DNA of 64,000 bases from Dokdonella fugitiva. GTDB lineage: Bacteria; Pseudomonadota; Gammaproteobacteria; Xanthomonadales; Rhodanobacteraceae. Below are positions 3,390 through 62,443 of this stretch, piece after piece. The position numbers and the translations under genes were made by a program. The notes beneath the pieces were generated by a model. It had not been told where the DNA came from. It saw only the letters and a program-made list of their open reading frames with translations, and made no database searches. Numbering within the stretch: position 1 is the stretch's first letter; each line of letters begins with the position of its first letter. The stretch spans positions 372,001-436,000 of the forward strand of contig NZ_JACGXL010000003.1 of assembly GCF_014138265.1 (NCBI RefSeq), given 5' to 3'.

Positions 3390-4652
3390 TCAGCGTCCCG
3401 CCGCGCGCGCGGCGAGGACATGCCGCAACGCACCGACGCCGCTCACCAAGGAGAGCGCCGCGCCGCGCAACGCGGCGACCGGCTCGCTCGCGGAACCGTA
3501 TACGCGCTCGATCGCGTCGAACCCGCGCGCGGCAAGCGTGTTGTCGCTGCGGCGCTCGCGCTCGTAGCGGCGCAGCACGTGTTCGGCGCCGAGGTCGCTG
3601 CCGCGTTCGCGCGCGGCGCGCAGCACGCGGCGCAGGCAGGCGACGTCGCGCAGGCCGAGGTTCATGCCCTGGCCCGCGAGCGGATGCACGACGTGCGCGG
3701 CGTCGCCGGCGAGCACGCCGCGTCCTTCGACGTAGCGTTCGGCGAGACGCAGGCGCAGCGGGAACGCGGCGCGCGGTGTGGTGGCGGTGATCGCGCCGAG
3801 GCGGAAATCGAACGCACAGCCGAGTTCGGCACGGAACGCGTCGTCGTCGAGCGCGAGCACGCGCGCGGCTTCCGCGTCGGGCAGCGACCAGACGATCGAA
3901 CAGCGACCGTCGGCGAGCGGCAGGAACGCGAGCGGACCGCCCGGCTGGAAGCGCTGCCACGCGGTGCCTGCGTGCGGACGTTCGGTCGCGACGTGCGCGA
4001 CGACCGCGCGCTGCGCGTAGTCGCGCCCTTCGAACGGAACGCCGAGGCGCGTGCGCACGGACGACTCGGCGCCTTCGGCGGCGACGAGCACGCGCGCGCG
4101 CAGGCGCGTGCCGTCGGCGAGTGTCGCGGTCACGCCGCTGTCGCTGTCCTCGATGTCGGCGACTTCGCCGGGACAGTGCATCCGCACCCCCGTGGGAGCG
4201 GCGGAAGCCGCGATGCTTCTTGCGGGGTTCGCGGCAGGAGCATCGCGGCTTCCGCCGCTCCCACAAAGGCGGTCTTCGTGCAGCGCCCGCCACAACATGG
4301 ACTGGACGAGCTTGTTCTCGACGATCCAGCCGAGCGCGGCCTCGCCCTGCTCGGCCGCGTCGAAATGCAGCTCGCCCGGCGCGAGCGCGTCCCACACGTG
4401 CATGTGCCGGTACGGGCCGATGCGCGCCGCCGCGATCGCCGCCCAGGCACCGAGGTCGTCGAGCAGCGCGCGCGCATCCGGCGCGAGCGCGACGACGCGC
4501 AGGTCGACCTCGTCCTCGGCGCGCCACGGTTTCGGTTCGCGCGCCTCGACCAGCGCGACCTCGAAGCCGTCGCGCGCGAGGGCGAGCGCGAGCGCGCCGC
4601 CGACCGCGCCCGCGCCGACGACGATGACGTCGAACTCGCCGCGCCGGCTCAC
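3390..4652 (-). CDS. FAD-dependent ubiquinone biosynthesis hydroxylase (UbiH/UbiF/UbiI family)
   Basis: The 420-residue flavoprotein monooxygenase hydroxylates the ring of ubiquinone precursors. The N-terminal dinucleotide fold reads 'VVGAGAVGGALALALA' (residues 11-26). The second FAD motif is 'GDAAHVVHPLAGQGMNLG' near residue 320. The family's internal 'GADGA.S' motif appears as 'AAEGAES' (191-197). The start overlaps the stop of the upstream hydroxylase gene by 4 bases, so the two are probably co-transcribed and translationally coupled. Residues 130-154 are encoded by an inverted pair of REP-like palindromes (4192-4264) and do not look like family sequence; the frame is preserved. Which ring position it acts on (UbiF, UbiI or another) cannot be decided from the sequence alone. 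Confidence 0.88.
   Translation of the reverse strand: MSRRGEFDVIVVGAGAVGGALALALARDGFEVALVEAREPKPWRAEDEVDLRVVALAPDARALLDDLGAWAAIAAARIGPYRHMHVWDALAPGELHFDAAEQGEAALGWIVENKLVQSMLWRALHEDRLCGSGGSRDAPAANPARSIAASAAPTGVRMHCPGEVADIEDSDSGVTATLADGTRLRARVLVAAEGAESSVRTRLGVPFEGRDYAQRAVVAHVATERPHAGTAWQRFQPGGPLAFLPLADGRCSIVWSLPDAEAARVLALDDDAFRAELGCAFDFRLGAITATTPRAAFPLRLRLAERYVEGRGVLAGDAAHVVHPLAGQGMNLGLRDVACLRRVLRAARERGSDLGAEHVLRRYERERRSDNTLAARGFDAIERVYGSASEPVAALRGAALSLVSGVGALRHVLAARAAGR
4192..4264. repeat. REP-like palindromic pair inserted in a coding sequence
   Basis: A direct unit at 4192-4216 beginning GTGGGAGCGGCGGAAGCCGC faces its exact inverse at 4240-4264, with a 23-base spacer. Each unit contains a GCGGC-GGAA-GCCGC hairpin, and the whole can fold into one long cruciform. 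The same unit occurs at 49039-49110, 61670-61763 and 62349-62443. Here it lies inside the ubiquinone hydroxylase gene and adds about 25 codons without breaking the frame. Confidence 0.93.
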
Positions 4653-5860
4653 GGCCGCAACCCGAGCATCGACGCGTCGCCGCGGAACCCCATGCCGCGC
4701 AGCGCGAAGCGGCGCTTGAGCGCGGAGCTGCGTTCGAGCGCATGGAAGCCGAGCGAGCGCAGCACGCGCAGCGGCAGCAGGTCGTGGCCCATCAGGCGCA
4801 CGAGGTCGTCGCTGAACGCGGTGGTCGCTTCGCGATCGGCCGCGCGACGCTCGACGTGGCGATCGAGCAGTGCGGCATCGCCCGGATCGCTGCCGCGCGA
4901 CGCCGCGTCGCGCAGCAGTTCGGCGAGCGTGAGTGCGTCGCGCAGGCCGAGGTTGAAGCCCTGCGCGCCGAGCGGGTGGACGGTCTGCGCCGCGTTGCCG
5001 ACGAGCACGCTGCGCGCGGCGGTCGTGCGCTCGGCGAGCGCGCGCGCGAGCGGGTACGGCTTGCGCCGGCCCGGGCGCGAGAAACGCCCCGCGCGCCAGC
5101 CGAAGCGTTCATGCACGAACGCGAGGAACGCATCGTCATCGAGTGCGGCGACGCGCGCCGCGTCGCCGGCCGGCACGCTCAGCACGAGGCCGGCGCGGCG
5201 TTCGCCGAGCGGCAGCAGCGCGACCGGACCCGAATCGGTGAAACGCTCGTAGGCGAGCCCGTCGAGCGCCTTCTCGGTCGTCAGCGTCGTCACGAACGCC
5301 GCCTGCGCGTAGTCGTGGCGCTGCACGCCGATGCCGAGCGCACGGCGCACGAACGACTCGCTGCCGTCGGCGCCGACGACGAGGCGCGCGCGCACGTGGC
5401 GCGTCGCGTCGCCATCGCGCAAGGTCGCGTCGACTGCGTCGTGCCGCGTCGCGAGCGCGATCGCCTGCGCCGGCGCGATGCGCAGCAGCGCGCGGCAGCC
5501 GTCGAGCCGGCGCAGCAACGCGTTGCCGAGTTCGCGTGCGGGCAGCACCGCGCCGAAGTCGCGCATCCCGAGTTCGGCCGCGTCGAGGCGCACCGCGCCG
5601 AAGTCGCCGCGACGACTCACGTGGATGCGCCGGATCGGCGTGAGCGGCGTGCCGGGTTCGAACACGCCGAGCGCGCGCAGCGCGTTCACGCTCGCCTGGG
5701 CGAGCGCGAGGTTGCGCTCGTCGTAGCTCGGCTGCAGCTCGACGCGCGGCGGCACGGCTTCGGCGAGCGCGACGACGAGGCCGGCGCCGTCGAGCGCGAT
5801 GGCGAGGCTGGCGCCGACGAGGCCGCCGCCGACGATGAGGACATCGAGGTCGCTGTTCAC
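4649..5860 (-). CDS. ubiH: 2-octaprenyl-6-methoxyphenol hydroxylase (UbiH family)
   Basis: The FAD-dependent aromatic hydroxylase of ubiquinone biosynthesis has 403 residues from a GTG start. It opens with 'DVLIVGGGLVGASLAIAL', carries the canonical 'GADGSESFVRR' motif near residue 165, and has the late FAD motif 'VGNAAQTVHPLGAQGFNLG' near residue 285. The GTG at 5860 puts the Rossmann fold 5 residues from the N-terminus, as is usual for the family. An ATG at 5881 would add 7 residues and cannot be excluded. Its stop overlaps the start of the second hydroxylase by 4 bases. The divergent gene at 5964 leaves about 100 bases for both promoters. Confidence 0.88.
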   Translation of the reverse strand: MNSDLDVLIVGGGLVGASLAIALDGAGLVVALAEAVPPRVELQPSYDERNLALAQASVNALRALGVFEPGTPLTPIRRIHVSRRGDFGAVRLDAAELGMRDFGAVLPARELGNALLRRLDGCRALLRIAPAQAIALATRHDAVDATLRDGDATRHVRARLVVGADGSESFVRRALGIGVQRHDYAQAAFVTTLTTEKALDGLAYERFTDSGPVALLPLGERRAGLVLSVPAGDAARVAALDDDAFLAFVHERFGWRAGRFSRPGRRKPYPLARALAERTTAARSVLVGNAAQTVHPLGAQGFNLGLRDALTLAELLRDAASRGSDPGDAALLDRHVERRAADREATTAFSDDLVRLMGHDLLPLRVLRSLGFHALERSSALKRRFALRGMGFRGDASMLGLRP

Positions 5861-5963
5861 CCCGCGATCATACCGGTGCATGCGCCGGCCCGGAACGCGC
5901 CCCGACGCGGCCGCACGCGTTCGGCTAAACTCCACGGCCTGCTTCCCAGGGCCCGAGAAACCC

Positions 5964-6614
5964 ATGACCGCCAGTTCCTCCCCCCTCGCCAAAGACCTGC
6001 GCCTCGGCCTGTTCCTGCTGCTCGGCCTCGTCATGGTCGCCACGCGCAGCCATCATTTCGACGCACTGCCGGATGCCTCGTGGGCAGTGTTCTTCCTCGC
6101 CGGCTTCTACCTGTCGCAGGGCAAGCCGGAGGAGCCGGTCACGCTCGCGGGCGGTTCGTTCCGCTGGGCGTTCCCGCTGCTGATGGCGCTCGCCGTCGCA
6201 ATCGACTACGCGGTCATCAGCGAGCAGGGCATCGATTTCTGGAGCCACTACTGCGTCTCGCCCGCGTACTGGTTCCTCGTGCCGAGCTACGCCGCGCTGT
6301 GGTTCGGCGGTGCCTGGCTGCGCGCACGCTACCGCGGCCTGCACCTGCGCGAGGGCGCGCTGCTCGTCGCCAGCGTCATGCTCGCCGCGAGCCTGTGCTA
6401 CCTGATCTCGAACGGCAGCTTCTACTGGATCAGCCCGAACGTGCCCGCGCGCAGCTTCGGCGGCTGGATCACCAACCTCGGCGACTGGTACCTGCCGTTC
6501 ATGCAGACGACGCTGATCTACGTCGGCATCGGCGCGGTGCTGCACGTCGCGACCACGCTCGCGGTGCATGCGCTCGGCGGCGCCGCGCAGCGTTCGCCGC
6601 AGTCGCACCGCTGA
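5964..6614 (+). CDS. Conserved multi-pass inner-membrane protein, function unknown
   Basis: The product of 216 residues has about five to six hydrophobic helices: near 12-25, 36-50, 67-82, 90-110, 122-142 and 175-200. No catalytic motif was recognised. It starts at the ATG preceded by a purine-rich stretch. It ends 29 bases before the cobalamin adenosyltransferase gene on the same strand, so a shared transcript is likely. A role linked to cobalamin is possible only by position. Confidence 0.75.
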   Translation: MTASSSPLAKDLRLGLFLLLGLVMVATRSHHFDALPDASWAVFFLAGFYLSQGKPEEPVTLAGGSFRWAFPLLMALAVAIDYAVISEQGIDFWSHYCVSPAYWFLVPSYAALWFGGAWLRARYRGLHLREGALLVASVMLAASLCYLISNGSFYWISPNVPARSFGGWITNLGDWYLPFMQTTLIYVGIGAVLHVATTLAVHALGGAAQRSPQSHR

Positions 6615-49038: not shown

Positions 49039-49110
49039 GTGGGAGCGACGGCAGCCGCGATGCTCGTGCTTCGAATCGACGAACGGCATCGCGGCTTCCG
49101 CCGCTCCCAC
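49039..49110. repeat. REP-like palindromic pair between lemA and TPM gene
   Basis: A direct unit (49039-49063, with two differences from the consensus) faces a perfect inverse unit at 49086-49110 across a 22-base spacer. The pair fills nearly the whole lemA-TPM gap and could act as an mRNA hairpin within the operon. Confidence 0.9.
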
Positions 49111-60464: not shown

Positions 60465-60862
60465 GTGCCGGGATTCCTTCGCGCGGGCGCCCGCACCATC
60501 GAGTCGAGCAGGCGCTCGAGCATCGTCGCGTGGTCGTCGCAGCGTCCGCTGTGCACGGGCGAGGTCTGGATCACCGTGCTGCGCGGTGCGACGAGCCAGC
60601 GGAATCGCTCGCGCGCGGGCAGGCGGCCGATCGGCCCCGCCTCGTCGCCGCCTGCGCAGATCGCGGCGAACGCGGCGAGGTGCGCGCGCACCGCGTCGAG
60701 ATCGACACCCGGGTCGAGCGCTCGCAGGCGCGCCTCGTCGAGTTCGATGCGCGCCTCGAGGAAGCCGCCCGCCTTGCACGACAGCACGACGCCCGCATTG
60801 ACGAACTCGCCGCGCTCGACGCGCGGCACGACGCGGATCACCGCATAGTCATACGCGTGCAC
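60461..60862 (-). CDS. DUF3037 protein, partner of the HipA-like kinase
   Basis: The 133-residue protein (GTG start) begins 'VHAYDYAVIRVVPRVERGEFVNAGVVL' in outline, the DUF3037 signature, and continues with 'DLDAVRAHLAAFAAICAGG'. It overlaps the 3' end of the HipA-like kinase gene by 14 bases and the winged-helix gene's start by 4. The function is unknown. The pairing with HipA-like kinases recurs in other bacteria to my knowledge. Confidence 0.85.
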   Translation of the reverse strand: MHAYDYAVIRVVPRVERGEFVNAGVVLSCKAGGFLEARIELDEARLRALDPGVDLDAVRAHLAAFAAICAGGDEAGPIGRLPARERFRWLVAPRSTVIQTSPVHSGRCDDHATMLERLLDSMVRAPARRNPGT

Positions 60863-61616
60863 GGAGCGCCTCCTCGGCGAACGCGCGCGGCGCTTCGAGT
60901 CGCCGGCAAAGATAGCTCGCGTACGCCTCGCGATGCTCCGCCACGCTCGCGAACGGCACGTCGCCACCGAGCCAGTCGTCGGGAATCGTCGCGACGATAC
61001 GCTCGATCGCATCGCGCGAGAGCAACGCGGCGAGGCGTTCGTCCGCCTCGCGCAGCTGCGTCGCGTACGACAGCAGCACGTGATCCTTGATGCGCGCGAA
61101 CGGATCAGCCGCGCGGGCGAGATAGCCGTCCCACGCATGATGGAAGTACAACGCGGCCCCGTGGTCGATGAGCCAGAGTTTGCGATGCCACACGAGCAGG
61201 TTCGTGTTGCGCGGCGTGCGGTCGACGTTGCTCGTGAACGCGTCGAACCAGACGACCGCGGACGCGAGCGCGGCATCCGGCTGGTCGACCACGGGATCGA
61301 ACGTGATCGATCCGGGCAGATAGTCGAGCGCGAGATTGAGCCCGCCGCTCGCGCGGATCAGGTGCTGGATTTCGGGATCGGGTTCCGTGCGCGCGAGGTC
61401 CGGATCGAGTTCGACGAACACGATCTCCGGCACCGGCAATCCGATCGCTCGCGCGAGCTCGCCCGCGACGAGCTCGGCGACGAGCGCCTTCGGCCCCTGC
61501 CCCGCGCCGCGGAACTTGAGCACGTACAAACCGGCGTCGTCGCCTTCGACGATCGCGGGCAGCGAGCCGCCTTCGCGCAAAGGCGTGACGTAGCGGGTGG
61601 CGGTGATGGTTCTCAT
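60849..61616 (-). CDS. HipA-like family kinase
   Basis: The 255-residue protein has a HipA-type kinase core: 'LYVLKFRGAG' with the ATP Lys, 'ELVAGELARAIGLPVPEIVF', the catalytic loop 'FDAFTSNVDRTPRNTNLLV' and the metal Asp in 'LWLIDHGAAL'. It lacks the N-terminal subdomain of full HipA and no HipB antitoxin gene lies near. It overlaps DUF3037 by 14 bases. The target is unknown. Full HipA toxins phosphorylate glutamyl-tRNA synthetase. Confidence 0.87.
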   Translation of the reverse strand: MRTITATRYVTPLREGGSLPAIVEGDDAGLYVLKFRGAGQGPKALVAELVAGELARAIGLPVPEIVFVELDPDLARTEPDPEIQHLIRASGGLNLALDYLPGSITFDPVVDQPDAALASAVVWFDAFTSNVDRTPRNTNLLVWHRKLWLIDHGAALYFHHAWDGYLARAADPFARIKDHVLLSYATQLREADERLAALLSRDAIERIVATIPDDWLGGDVPFASVAEHREAYASYLCRRLEAPRAFAEEALRARV

Positions 61617-61669
61617 GCGCGAAGGATACGGCATGCGCGTCGATTGATCGCTGGTGAAACGGCCAGAAA

Positions 61670-61763
61670 CATCGCGGCTTCCGCCGCTCCAACGGAAAGC
61701 TGCTTCGCCACATCTTCGCGGCGAGGCGACCGCTTTCTGTGGGAGCGGCGGAAGCCGCTCTTG
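61670..61763. repeat. Left REP cluster flanking the RAYT gene
   Basis: An inverse unit (61670-61694, one base changed at each end) and a direct unit (61739-61763) are joined by a 44-base spacer. The whole is an inverted, roughly 88% identical copy of the cluster at 62349-62443, spacer included. Confidence 0.92.
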
Positions 61764-61834
61764 CTCTCCATTCCTACAGTAACGCAGCCCGTTACTCGCT
61801 ATCCGGATCGTGAGCAAACGGCGACGCTGCACGC

Positions 61835-62308
61835 ATGCATCGAGCCGGCTTTCCCTCTCCAGGAACATCCGCGCTGCGCCGCGGCCGTCGATCCGAGCCT
61901 GGCCGGTGCTATCTGTTGACCTTCACCTGCAAGGCCCGCGCGCCACTGTTCAGCGACGCGACGATCGCCCGCGCAGCCGCCCGAACCCTGACCGAACGCC
62001 GCCTGTGGCGCGATTCGCACCTGCTCTGCTGGGTACTCATGCCCGACCACTGGCATGGATTGATCGAACTGTCCGCAGCCGAATCGCTGTCGACGCTCGC
62101 GACGCGGATCAAGGCGATCTCCGCTCGAACGGTCGCCGTTGCTGCAGAGCGAAGCGGGCCCGTATGGGCGAGCGGTTTCCATGATCGAGCGCTGCGCAAA
62201 GACGATGACCTCCTCACGGCTGCGCGCTACATCATCCGCAATCCGGTTCGTGCCGGATTCTGCGCTCGGGTGGGCGACTATCCGTACTGGGATGCAGTGT
62301 GGCTGTGA
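61835..62308 (+). CDS. REP-associated tyrosine transposase (RAYT), intact
   Basis: The 157-residue Y1-type single-strand transposase has its HUH motif as 'MPDHWHGLIEL' (His72, His74), catalytic Tyr132 in 'ARYIIRNPVRAGF' and the C-terminal 'GDYPYWDAVW'. It is expected to nick and mobilise REP hairpins. It sits between two inverted REP clusters (61670-61763 and 62349-62443), the arrangement called a REPtron in other gammaproteobacteria. A diverged, inactive paralogue lies at 28878. Confidence 0.93.
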   Translation: MHRAGFPSPGTSALRRGRRSEPGRCYLLTFTCKARAPLFSDATIARAAARTLTERRLWRDSHLLCWVLMPDHWHGLIELSAAESLSTLATRIKAISARTVAVAAERSGPVWASGFHDRALRKDDDLLTAARYIIRNPVRAGFCARVGDYPYWDAVWL

Positions 62309-62348: not shown

Positions 62349-62443
62349 GCATCGCGGCTTCCGCCGCTCCCACAGAGAGCGGTCGCCTCGGCGCGAAGAT
62401 GCAGCGAAACAGCTTTCTGTGGGAGCGGCGGAAGCCGCGATGC
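62349..62443. repeat. Right REP cluster flanking the RAYT gene
   Basis: A perfect inverse unit (62349-62373) and a perfect direct unit (62419-62443) are joined by a 45-base spacer that is the reverse complement of the left cluster's spacer with few changes. It is the best-preserved cluster in the window. Confidence 0.94.

Follow-up and report, generated by a model that had tools for sequence, protein, structure and literature searches.

An in-frame REP pair in a loop of a ubiquinone hydroxylase gene of Dokdonella fugitiva, and different palindromes in REP-bearing linkers of other proteins in related species

Introduction

REPs are short mobile DNA palindromes whose usual place is between genes. 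Exceptions have been described, the closest of them by Di Nocera et al. (2013; PMC3733652), who reported intragenic REPs of the GTAG class whose host proteins have nothing in common, tRNA synthetases and RNA helicases being among them. More than half of these intragenic REPs are dimers or groups that encode 20-30 residues. The parts of that report drawn on here suggest flexible linkers or loops as their location, with neutral insertion among the readings offered, and put forward as a tempting idea a change of activity through some of the insertions that lie in repair genes. They also mention that X. campestris and X. oryzae carry different REPs at nearly the same point of recB. A second precedent is provided by the Rickettsia palindromic elements (RPEs), which also lie in frame in unrelated protein genes. 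RPEs were first described as about 150 bp long, in the portion of PMC10969869 considered here, and RPE-4 and RPE-6 have been counted among the short CGTC REPs (PMC3733652, same parts). Finally, long inverted repeats have been found in protein genes of nematomorph mitochondria, according to the part of PMC6649704 considered.

Here we describe a REP pair in frame within an FAD hydroxylase gene of Dokdonella fugitiva, located in a stretch of 64,000 nucleotides that was analysed as a whole (the window). Like many of the GTAG-class cases, it is an intragenic dimer, one that encodes 25 residues. As far as the cited parts of that work go, the present case differs in that relics at the same site can be traced in sister species and in that unrelated palindrome families occupy the same loops. 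The likeness to RPEs is one of arrangement; in contrast to those elements, this GTGG-tagged pair has a host other than Rickettsia. At 73 nt it is shorter than the RPEs as first described, although length alone is no ground for exclusion given the short RPE families. The nematomorph repeats differ in lying in animal mitochondrial genes. In-frame intragenic REPs are therefore already known, and the occupation of the same loop by unrelated repeats is the less-described part. Among the matches listed in our literature search, no title or abstract opening dealt with unrelated palindromes in the same loops, beyond the recB remark in PMC3733652, and none dealt with REPs of Dokdonella.

Results

A REP pair lies in frame within a ubiquinone hydroxylase gene

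The gene that carries the repeat (Table 1) encodes an FAD hydroxylase, as the initial annotation had proposed from the letters. In a profile search its product scored 425 bits against TIGR01988 (Ubi-OHases; curated cut-off 224.65) and 118.4 bits against PF01494, and its solved relatives are 4k22 (VisC) and 4n9x. Its neighbour, with which it shares four bases, is another hydroxylase gene (4649-6043), whose product lies above the cut-off of NF004356 (2-octaprenyl-6-methoxyphenyl hydroxylase) and below that of TIGR01984.

The REP pair reported in frame at 4192-4264 was confirmed by the complementarity of its arms, by its fold and by its copies across the genome. The two arms, of 29 nt each, are 97% complementary and 15 nt apart. 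Their make-up is GTGG-GA-GCGGC-GGAA-GCCGC-GATGCT, with both GTGG tags facing outward. The DNA fold of a 96-nt stretch that includes the flanks reached -44.8 kcal/mol, against a mean of -22.3 for its shuffles (z -8.4), and none of 200 shuffles equalled it. A single arm folds into a 5-bp stem, GCGGC/GCCGC, with a GGAA loop; this fold is weak when taken alone (z -2.1, equalled by 6 of 200 shuffles).

The frame is open through the insert, and the REP-encoded part comprises residues 130-154 of the 420, both as first described. The position given for the insert, between 'LHED' and 'GVRMHCPGEV', also held, with the correction that the residues R and L intervene after 'LHED'. Because 73 is not divisible by three (25 codons need 75 bases), a few adjoining bases must have come with the insert or have been adjusted.

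Table 1. Features of the window related to the REP family and the hydroxylase gene
Feature	Position	Strand	Remarks
UbiH/UbiF/VisC/COQ6-family FAD hydroxylase gene	3390..4652	minus	420 aa, GTG start, carries REP pair
25 codons of REP-derived, predicted disordered segment	4191..4265	minus	CGSGGSRDAPAANPARSIAASAAPT, residues 130-154
REP arm 1	4192..4220	plus	core GTGGGAGCGGCGGAAGCCGCGATGCT, GTGG tag at outer end; in gene direction encodes the SIAASAAPT half
Spacer between REP arms	4221..4235	none	
REP arm 2, inverted	4236..4264	minus	encodes the GSGGSRDA half
REP pair (+-), same family	49039..49110		not classed as intragenic
REP pair (-+) upstream of RAYT gene	61672..61760		
REP-associated tyrosine transposase (RAYT) gene	61835..62308	plus	NF047646 129 bits, cut-off 80; REP pairs on both sides
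REP pair (-+) downstream of RAYT gene	62352..62440		

The repeat belongs to a GTAG-class family accompanied by a RAYT gene

Within the window, a 26-base arm found seven matches with at most three mismatches, both arms of the host gene included, while 100 shuffles gave none. Across the 4.77 Mb genome and at the same tolerance, a 22-base core matched 75 times forward and 70 times in reverse (145 in all), against 2 matches for a reversed-pattern control. Both arms in the host gene equal this core with zero mismatches.

The family has the features of GTAG-class REPs. The host-gene arms start with GTGG and other genome copies with GTAG; in the cited parts of PMC3733652, degeneration of the tag to the GTRG type is described, with GTGG in most elements of one family. 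Each unit has a self-complementary stem of 5 bp, where the class has 5-13 bp. The copies are many and dispersed, often as inverted dimers (43 '+-' pairs in the census below), and a RAYT gene is flanked by the same REPs. This gene also scores above the cut-off of PF01797, for which it is the sole match in the Dokdonella fugitiva genome, and is the likely source of REP mobility.

Beside it, a minus-strand ORF (60849-61868) that had no match in an NCBIfam search crosses the upstream REP pair with its 5' part, so that translation may in fact begin only after the repeat.

Six genes of the genome carry in-frame REPs

We then took a census in the D. fugitiva genome (G000), covering 40 stretches around REP places plus the window, 562 kb in total. 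This census is incomplete, as the sample holds 126 REP arms with at most three mismatches, against 145 genome-wide. Arms with at most four mismatches were grouped into elements, and the 77 elements examined include 43 '+-' pairs, 6 '-+' pairs and 24 single arms. Coding sequence was called with a home-made caller seeded with four window genes, two of them supported by a profile match; the other two we take to be an LptD-like ORF and a deacetylase-like ORF. An earlier coding model, trained on the longest ORFs, yielded implausible codon preferences and was dropped. A coding-flank threshold of 0.25 missed hrpB and metG, which were spotted by eye, and the census used 0.1.

The caller assigned seven elements to in-frame positions in genes and one to a frame-shifted position, and 69 were not classed as intragenic. 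Since coding scores cover about 80% of the sequence examined, this mostly non-intragenic placement fits the loss of most insertions into genes. The frame-shifted call (L098:7064-7212) has weak coding scores and a stop. One of the in-frame calls, L107, is a single arm with 4 mismatches, too weak to be counted as an intragenic REP. The six genes with in-frame REPs are those of the Ubi hydroxylase, bioA, murL, icmF, hrpB and metG. In bioA one of the arms has 4 mismatches. In metG one arm was found by rule; the second, of a TTCAG type that exceeds the mismatch limit, was identified by eye.

Taken modulo 3, the outer lengths of the 43 '+-' pairs divide into classes of 16, 14 and 13, so the element itself is not built for frame-keeping. 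In the six genes, the arginine-rich frames WERRKPRC and HRGFRRSH are used by none of the 12 arms, and five of the six reverse arms read IAASAAP.

Decayed REP pairs mark the same hydroxylase loop in two relatives

We scanned 16 genomes of the genus, of which 13, G000 included, have an alignable Ubi orthologue; G002 and G012 (no match) and G003 (fragments only) were left out. Outside the loop, the 12 congeners are 72-89% identical to the window protein. In the loop, two congeners (G015 and G006) have decayed REP pairs, three (G010, G013 and G008) have non-REP segments of similar length, and seven are short, with 21-33 nt in the loop interval versus 99 in G000. The inserts of G015 and G006 score as REP-derived, with none of 500 base shuffles reaching either the single-arm or the two-arm score.

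The segments of G010, G013 and G008 (99, 93 and 87 nt) show no convincing REP similarity. Of 500 shuffles of each, 68, 151 and 10, respectively, attained the two-arm score, and the three segments were on this ground rejected as decayed REPs. Non-repetitive segments of the same length in all close homologues, the observation that the initial annotation had named as speaking against its reading, thus occur in three of the 12 congeners. The presence of such segments at the same site suggests that the loop may have grown by other means. The core pattern matches nowhere in G010 and once in G008, which speaks for the explanation that we prefer, as the Ubi segments of these two are not REP-like. It matches 200 times in G013, and the lack of a REP in the Ubi loop of G013 despite these copies counts against that explanation.

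Outside the genus, the long segment is absent from all 17 orthologues of other genera in our set, beyond which there were nine further matching genomes. It is likewise absent from 79 of 80 loci in a wider scan (the best 80 of 537, a few of them the same records as congeners), the exception being L131. On these absences we rejected the reading of the segment as an old family feature.

As read from the alignment, the flanking conserved codons lie 16 and 13 nt from the element ends in G000, G015 and G006 alike; internally, the G015 insert is 6 nt longer. The equal flank distances favour one ancestral insertion. Our tree was built without icmF of G007 and G003 and hrpB of G008 and G002, and G011 had no match for icmF. 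In it, G000 and G015 group as sisters with support 1.00, while the nodes that link them to the G006 clade have 0.14 and 0.26. Because the G000 copy is flawless and those of G015 and G006 are decayed, a renewal or a second insertion is likely, if unproven. The G000 copy may have been renewed after the split from G015, or it may stem from a separate insertion event at this very position.

Different palindromes occupy the same loops of other proteins

Beyond Ubi, we compared the loops of murL, icmF, hrpB and metG across the genomes. In the first three, some of the relatives have other in-frame palindromes, several of unrelated families, while metG has relics only. The MurL loop holds a REP in G000, a REP that differs in type and has near-perfect arms in G015, a GTAGGAG palindrome in G006 (seen from the fold), several copies of CCCTCCCCTTCAAGGGGAGGG in G013 and CCCGCGAAAGCGGG in G003; the other 11 genomes have no palindrome there by the looser rule given below. 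The G006 palindrome reads an arginine-bearing frame (..RSRLQRSYRG). In the IcmF loop, REP pairs of differing type are present in G000 and G006, and G009, G013 and G004 carry a GGGGTCAGAGTCA or GGGGACGGAGTCA palindrome. The palindrome is less perfect in G014 and decayed in G005 and G015, the latter having a decayed GGGGTCAGAGTC at the position that a fresh REP pair takes in its sister G000. The IcmF loop is short in G008 and G010, and no palindrome was found by rule in G001, G002 and G012; G007 and G003 (not comparable) and G011 (no match) did not enter this comparison. The HrpB loop has a REP in G000, CCCTCCCC in G013, a smaller palindrome in G006 (fold only) and a one-arm relic in G015 (by eye), with none in the remaining genomes by the strict rule. 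The MetG linker has a two-type REP pair in G000 and G015, identical at 72 of 72 nt, a decayed REP of another type in G006 and half of a CCCTCCCC element in G013. CCCTCCCC occurs at 145 places of G013, on both strands, and CCCGCG has 88 matches in G003. GGGGTCAGAGTCA has 1-7 matches in five of the 16 genomes, and several of these matches are the very copies in icmF, so that it represents a low-copy family.

Palindromes were then counted by a strict rule (arms of at least 16 with at most 1 mismatch), with second pieces of split genes left out and with the five loops as defined in G000 plus 12 residues on each side. The five genes of the congeners contain 11 such palindromes, against 2.0 on average after codon shuffling. 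Seven fall in the five loops, which make up 4.75% of residues, and four in other linkers. The corresponding binomial value of 1.5e-7 is overstated because some of the insertions were inherited. All seven loop palindromes are in icmF, murL and hrpB, with none in the Ubi loop of congeners by this rule and none in metG by either rule. A looser rule (arms of 14, G000 included) gave 13 in the loops and 19 elsewhere. Several of the 19 look like chance matches in GC-rich codons, as the loop palindrome of G011 hrpB probably is.

The metG identity between G000 and G015 sits in an identical run of 149 nt within a mosaic gene that has a run of 89 nt elsewhere. At residues ~451-570 of these two copies (L262 and L263), identity in 45-nt DNA steps drops to 0.42-0.62; elsewhere it is mostly at least 0.84 (lowest 0.64), and the far edge of this divergent part lies just before the REP-bearing linker. 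This pattern suggests recombination. The metG linkers of G010, G009, G013 and G001 (L267, L273, L266 and L277) read variants of NPQSPIPNPG, and in G010, G009 and G001 their DNA consists of short tandem repeats, with AATCCCC or AATCCCG as the type of unit.

Further repeats were observed at other linkers. In icmF of G006 (L225), an in-frame GGGGTCAGAGTCA palindrome at residues 114-141 encodes RGQSHFS..KNDSDP, and an in-frame CGTTCGTCCTGAGG repeat covers residues 512-547 of the aligned ORF. In hrpB of G013 (L210), a second linker at ~249-276 carries a REP pair of the window type that encodes CGSGGSRDA..SRLPPLPQ; near this place hrpB of G006 has a different, shorter palindrome. Near residue 484, the icmF gene of G008 (L227) contains the palindrome CTCCCGCTTGCGGGAG, whose arms are separated by two unread bases (NN); the assembly probably has a gap here, within the gene.

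The inserts are predicted to lie in low-confidence loops

AlphaFold2 models of the Ubi hydroxylase, built with 15 sequences, had a mean pLDDT of 78.2 for the best of five and 50.1 for the worst, a wide difference among models. Residues 129-153 fall below 50, between a helix (113-130) and a strand (156-159), as do other short stretches. The MurL models, built with 16 sequences, ranged from 76.8 for the best to 57.9 for the worst; here the REP segment lies within residues 120-148, which are below 50 together with four other stretches. The low values at the inserts may partly reflect the few sequences aligned there. The models thus place the REP residues of the hydroxylase in a low-confidence loop leading from helix to strand, in keeping with the tolerant loop proposed initially, and the roughly 25 amino acids that the REP adds are probably floppy.

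Discussion

We consider it likely that a REP insertion mobilised by RAYT was kept in the hydroxylase gene through its open frame and the tolerance of a disordered loop, and that it would be neutral. Our model suggests that a GTAG-class REP pair, most likely mobilised by RAYT, inserted into the Ubi loop between a conserved helix and a conserved strand, in an ancestor common at least to G015 and probably also to G006. The insert would have been kept because its net length preserves the frame, it contains no stop, and the loop would tolerate about 25 extra, mostly small residues. Most REP insertions into genes would be lost, while frame-keeping ones in disordered linkers would survive, decay and possibly be succeeded by others. 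We hypothesize that the same filter acted on the five other in-frame REPs and on the further palindromes that related species have in these linkers.

A tolerance filter alone would gather survivors in the same loops, and for this reason we regard as unlikely a second explanation, in which insertion itself is biased to palindrome-bearing loops by transposase targeting, repeat-repeat recombination or template switching, with replacement in place. Such a bias could account for the share of strict palindromes found in the loops, for the decayed palindrome in the IcmF loop of G015 where G000 has a fresh REP pair, and for the Ubi junctions that coincide in three species. However, four of the 11 strict palindromes lie in other linkers, and none in the Ubi or metG loops of congeners.

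It is improbable that the REP-derived peptide was co-opted, as a flexible linker of set length or for partner binding, and is kept by selection. Selection for function, one of the initial suggestions, was not supported: relatives lack, shorten or alter the segment, which is missing in seven of the 12 Ubi congeners, and in G015 the palindrome is largely lost. The avoidance of arginine-rich frames would fit co-option, with a rough chance of (2/3)^12, about 0.008, for arms that are not independent. Tolerance predicts it too, however, and the murL palindrome of G006 does read an arginine-bearing frame. The identity of the metG REP in two species could likewise point to selection, but it is part of a longer identical run in a mosaic gene.

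The segment might instead be excised after transcription or bypassed in translation, giving a protein without it. The palindrome could form a strong RNA hairpin, and the initial annotation drew an analogy with a splicing-like reading, its only other ground. The frame is open in G000, G015 and G006, and the listed Ubi matches (one-frame ORFs) are free of stops, which excision would not require; we find removal very improbable. In-frame stops were flagged in 10 of the 16 murL matches (taken as the gene's own stop), in icmF of G007 and in the hrpB piece of G002. An assembly error or a frameshifted pseudogene is hardly credible, as a single frame suffices to align the protein with its orthologues over the whole length and REP relics lie at the same place in two other genomes.

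Returning to the tolerance of the loop as the preferred explanation, a tentative and rather doubtful extension is that in this genus a few linkers are long-lived landing sites, in which REP, GGGGTCAGAGTCA, CCCTCCCCTTCAAGGGGAGGG and CCCGCGAAAGCGGG replace one another in frame beyond what tolerance would give. If this were true, intergenic repeats would steadily supply core enzymes with new linker sequence.

The locus shows a route by which repeat DNA enters core enzymes without breakage of the frame, and the sister species allow insertion, decay and replacement at the same loops to be dated and tested. In the predicted proteins of this group, strings such as GSGGSRDA, SIAASAAPT, PPLQGEGRGGDG, GQSHFS and SRLRGNDE may be derived from repeats and not be a protein-family signal.
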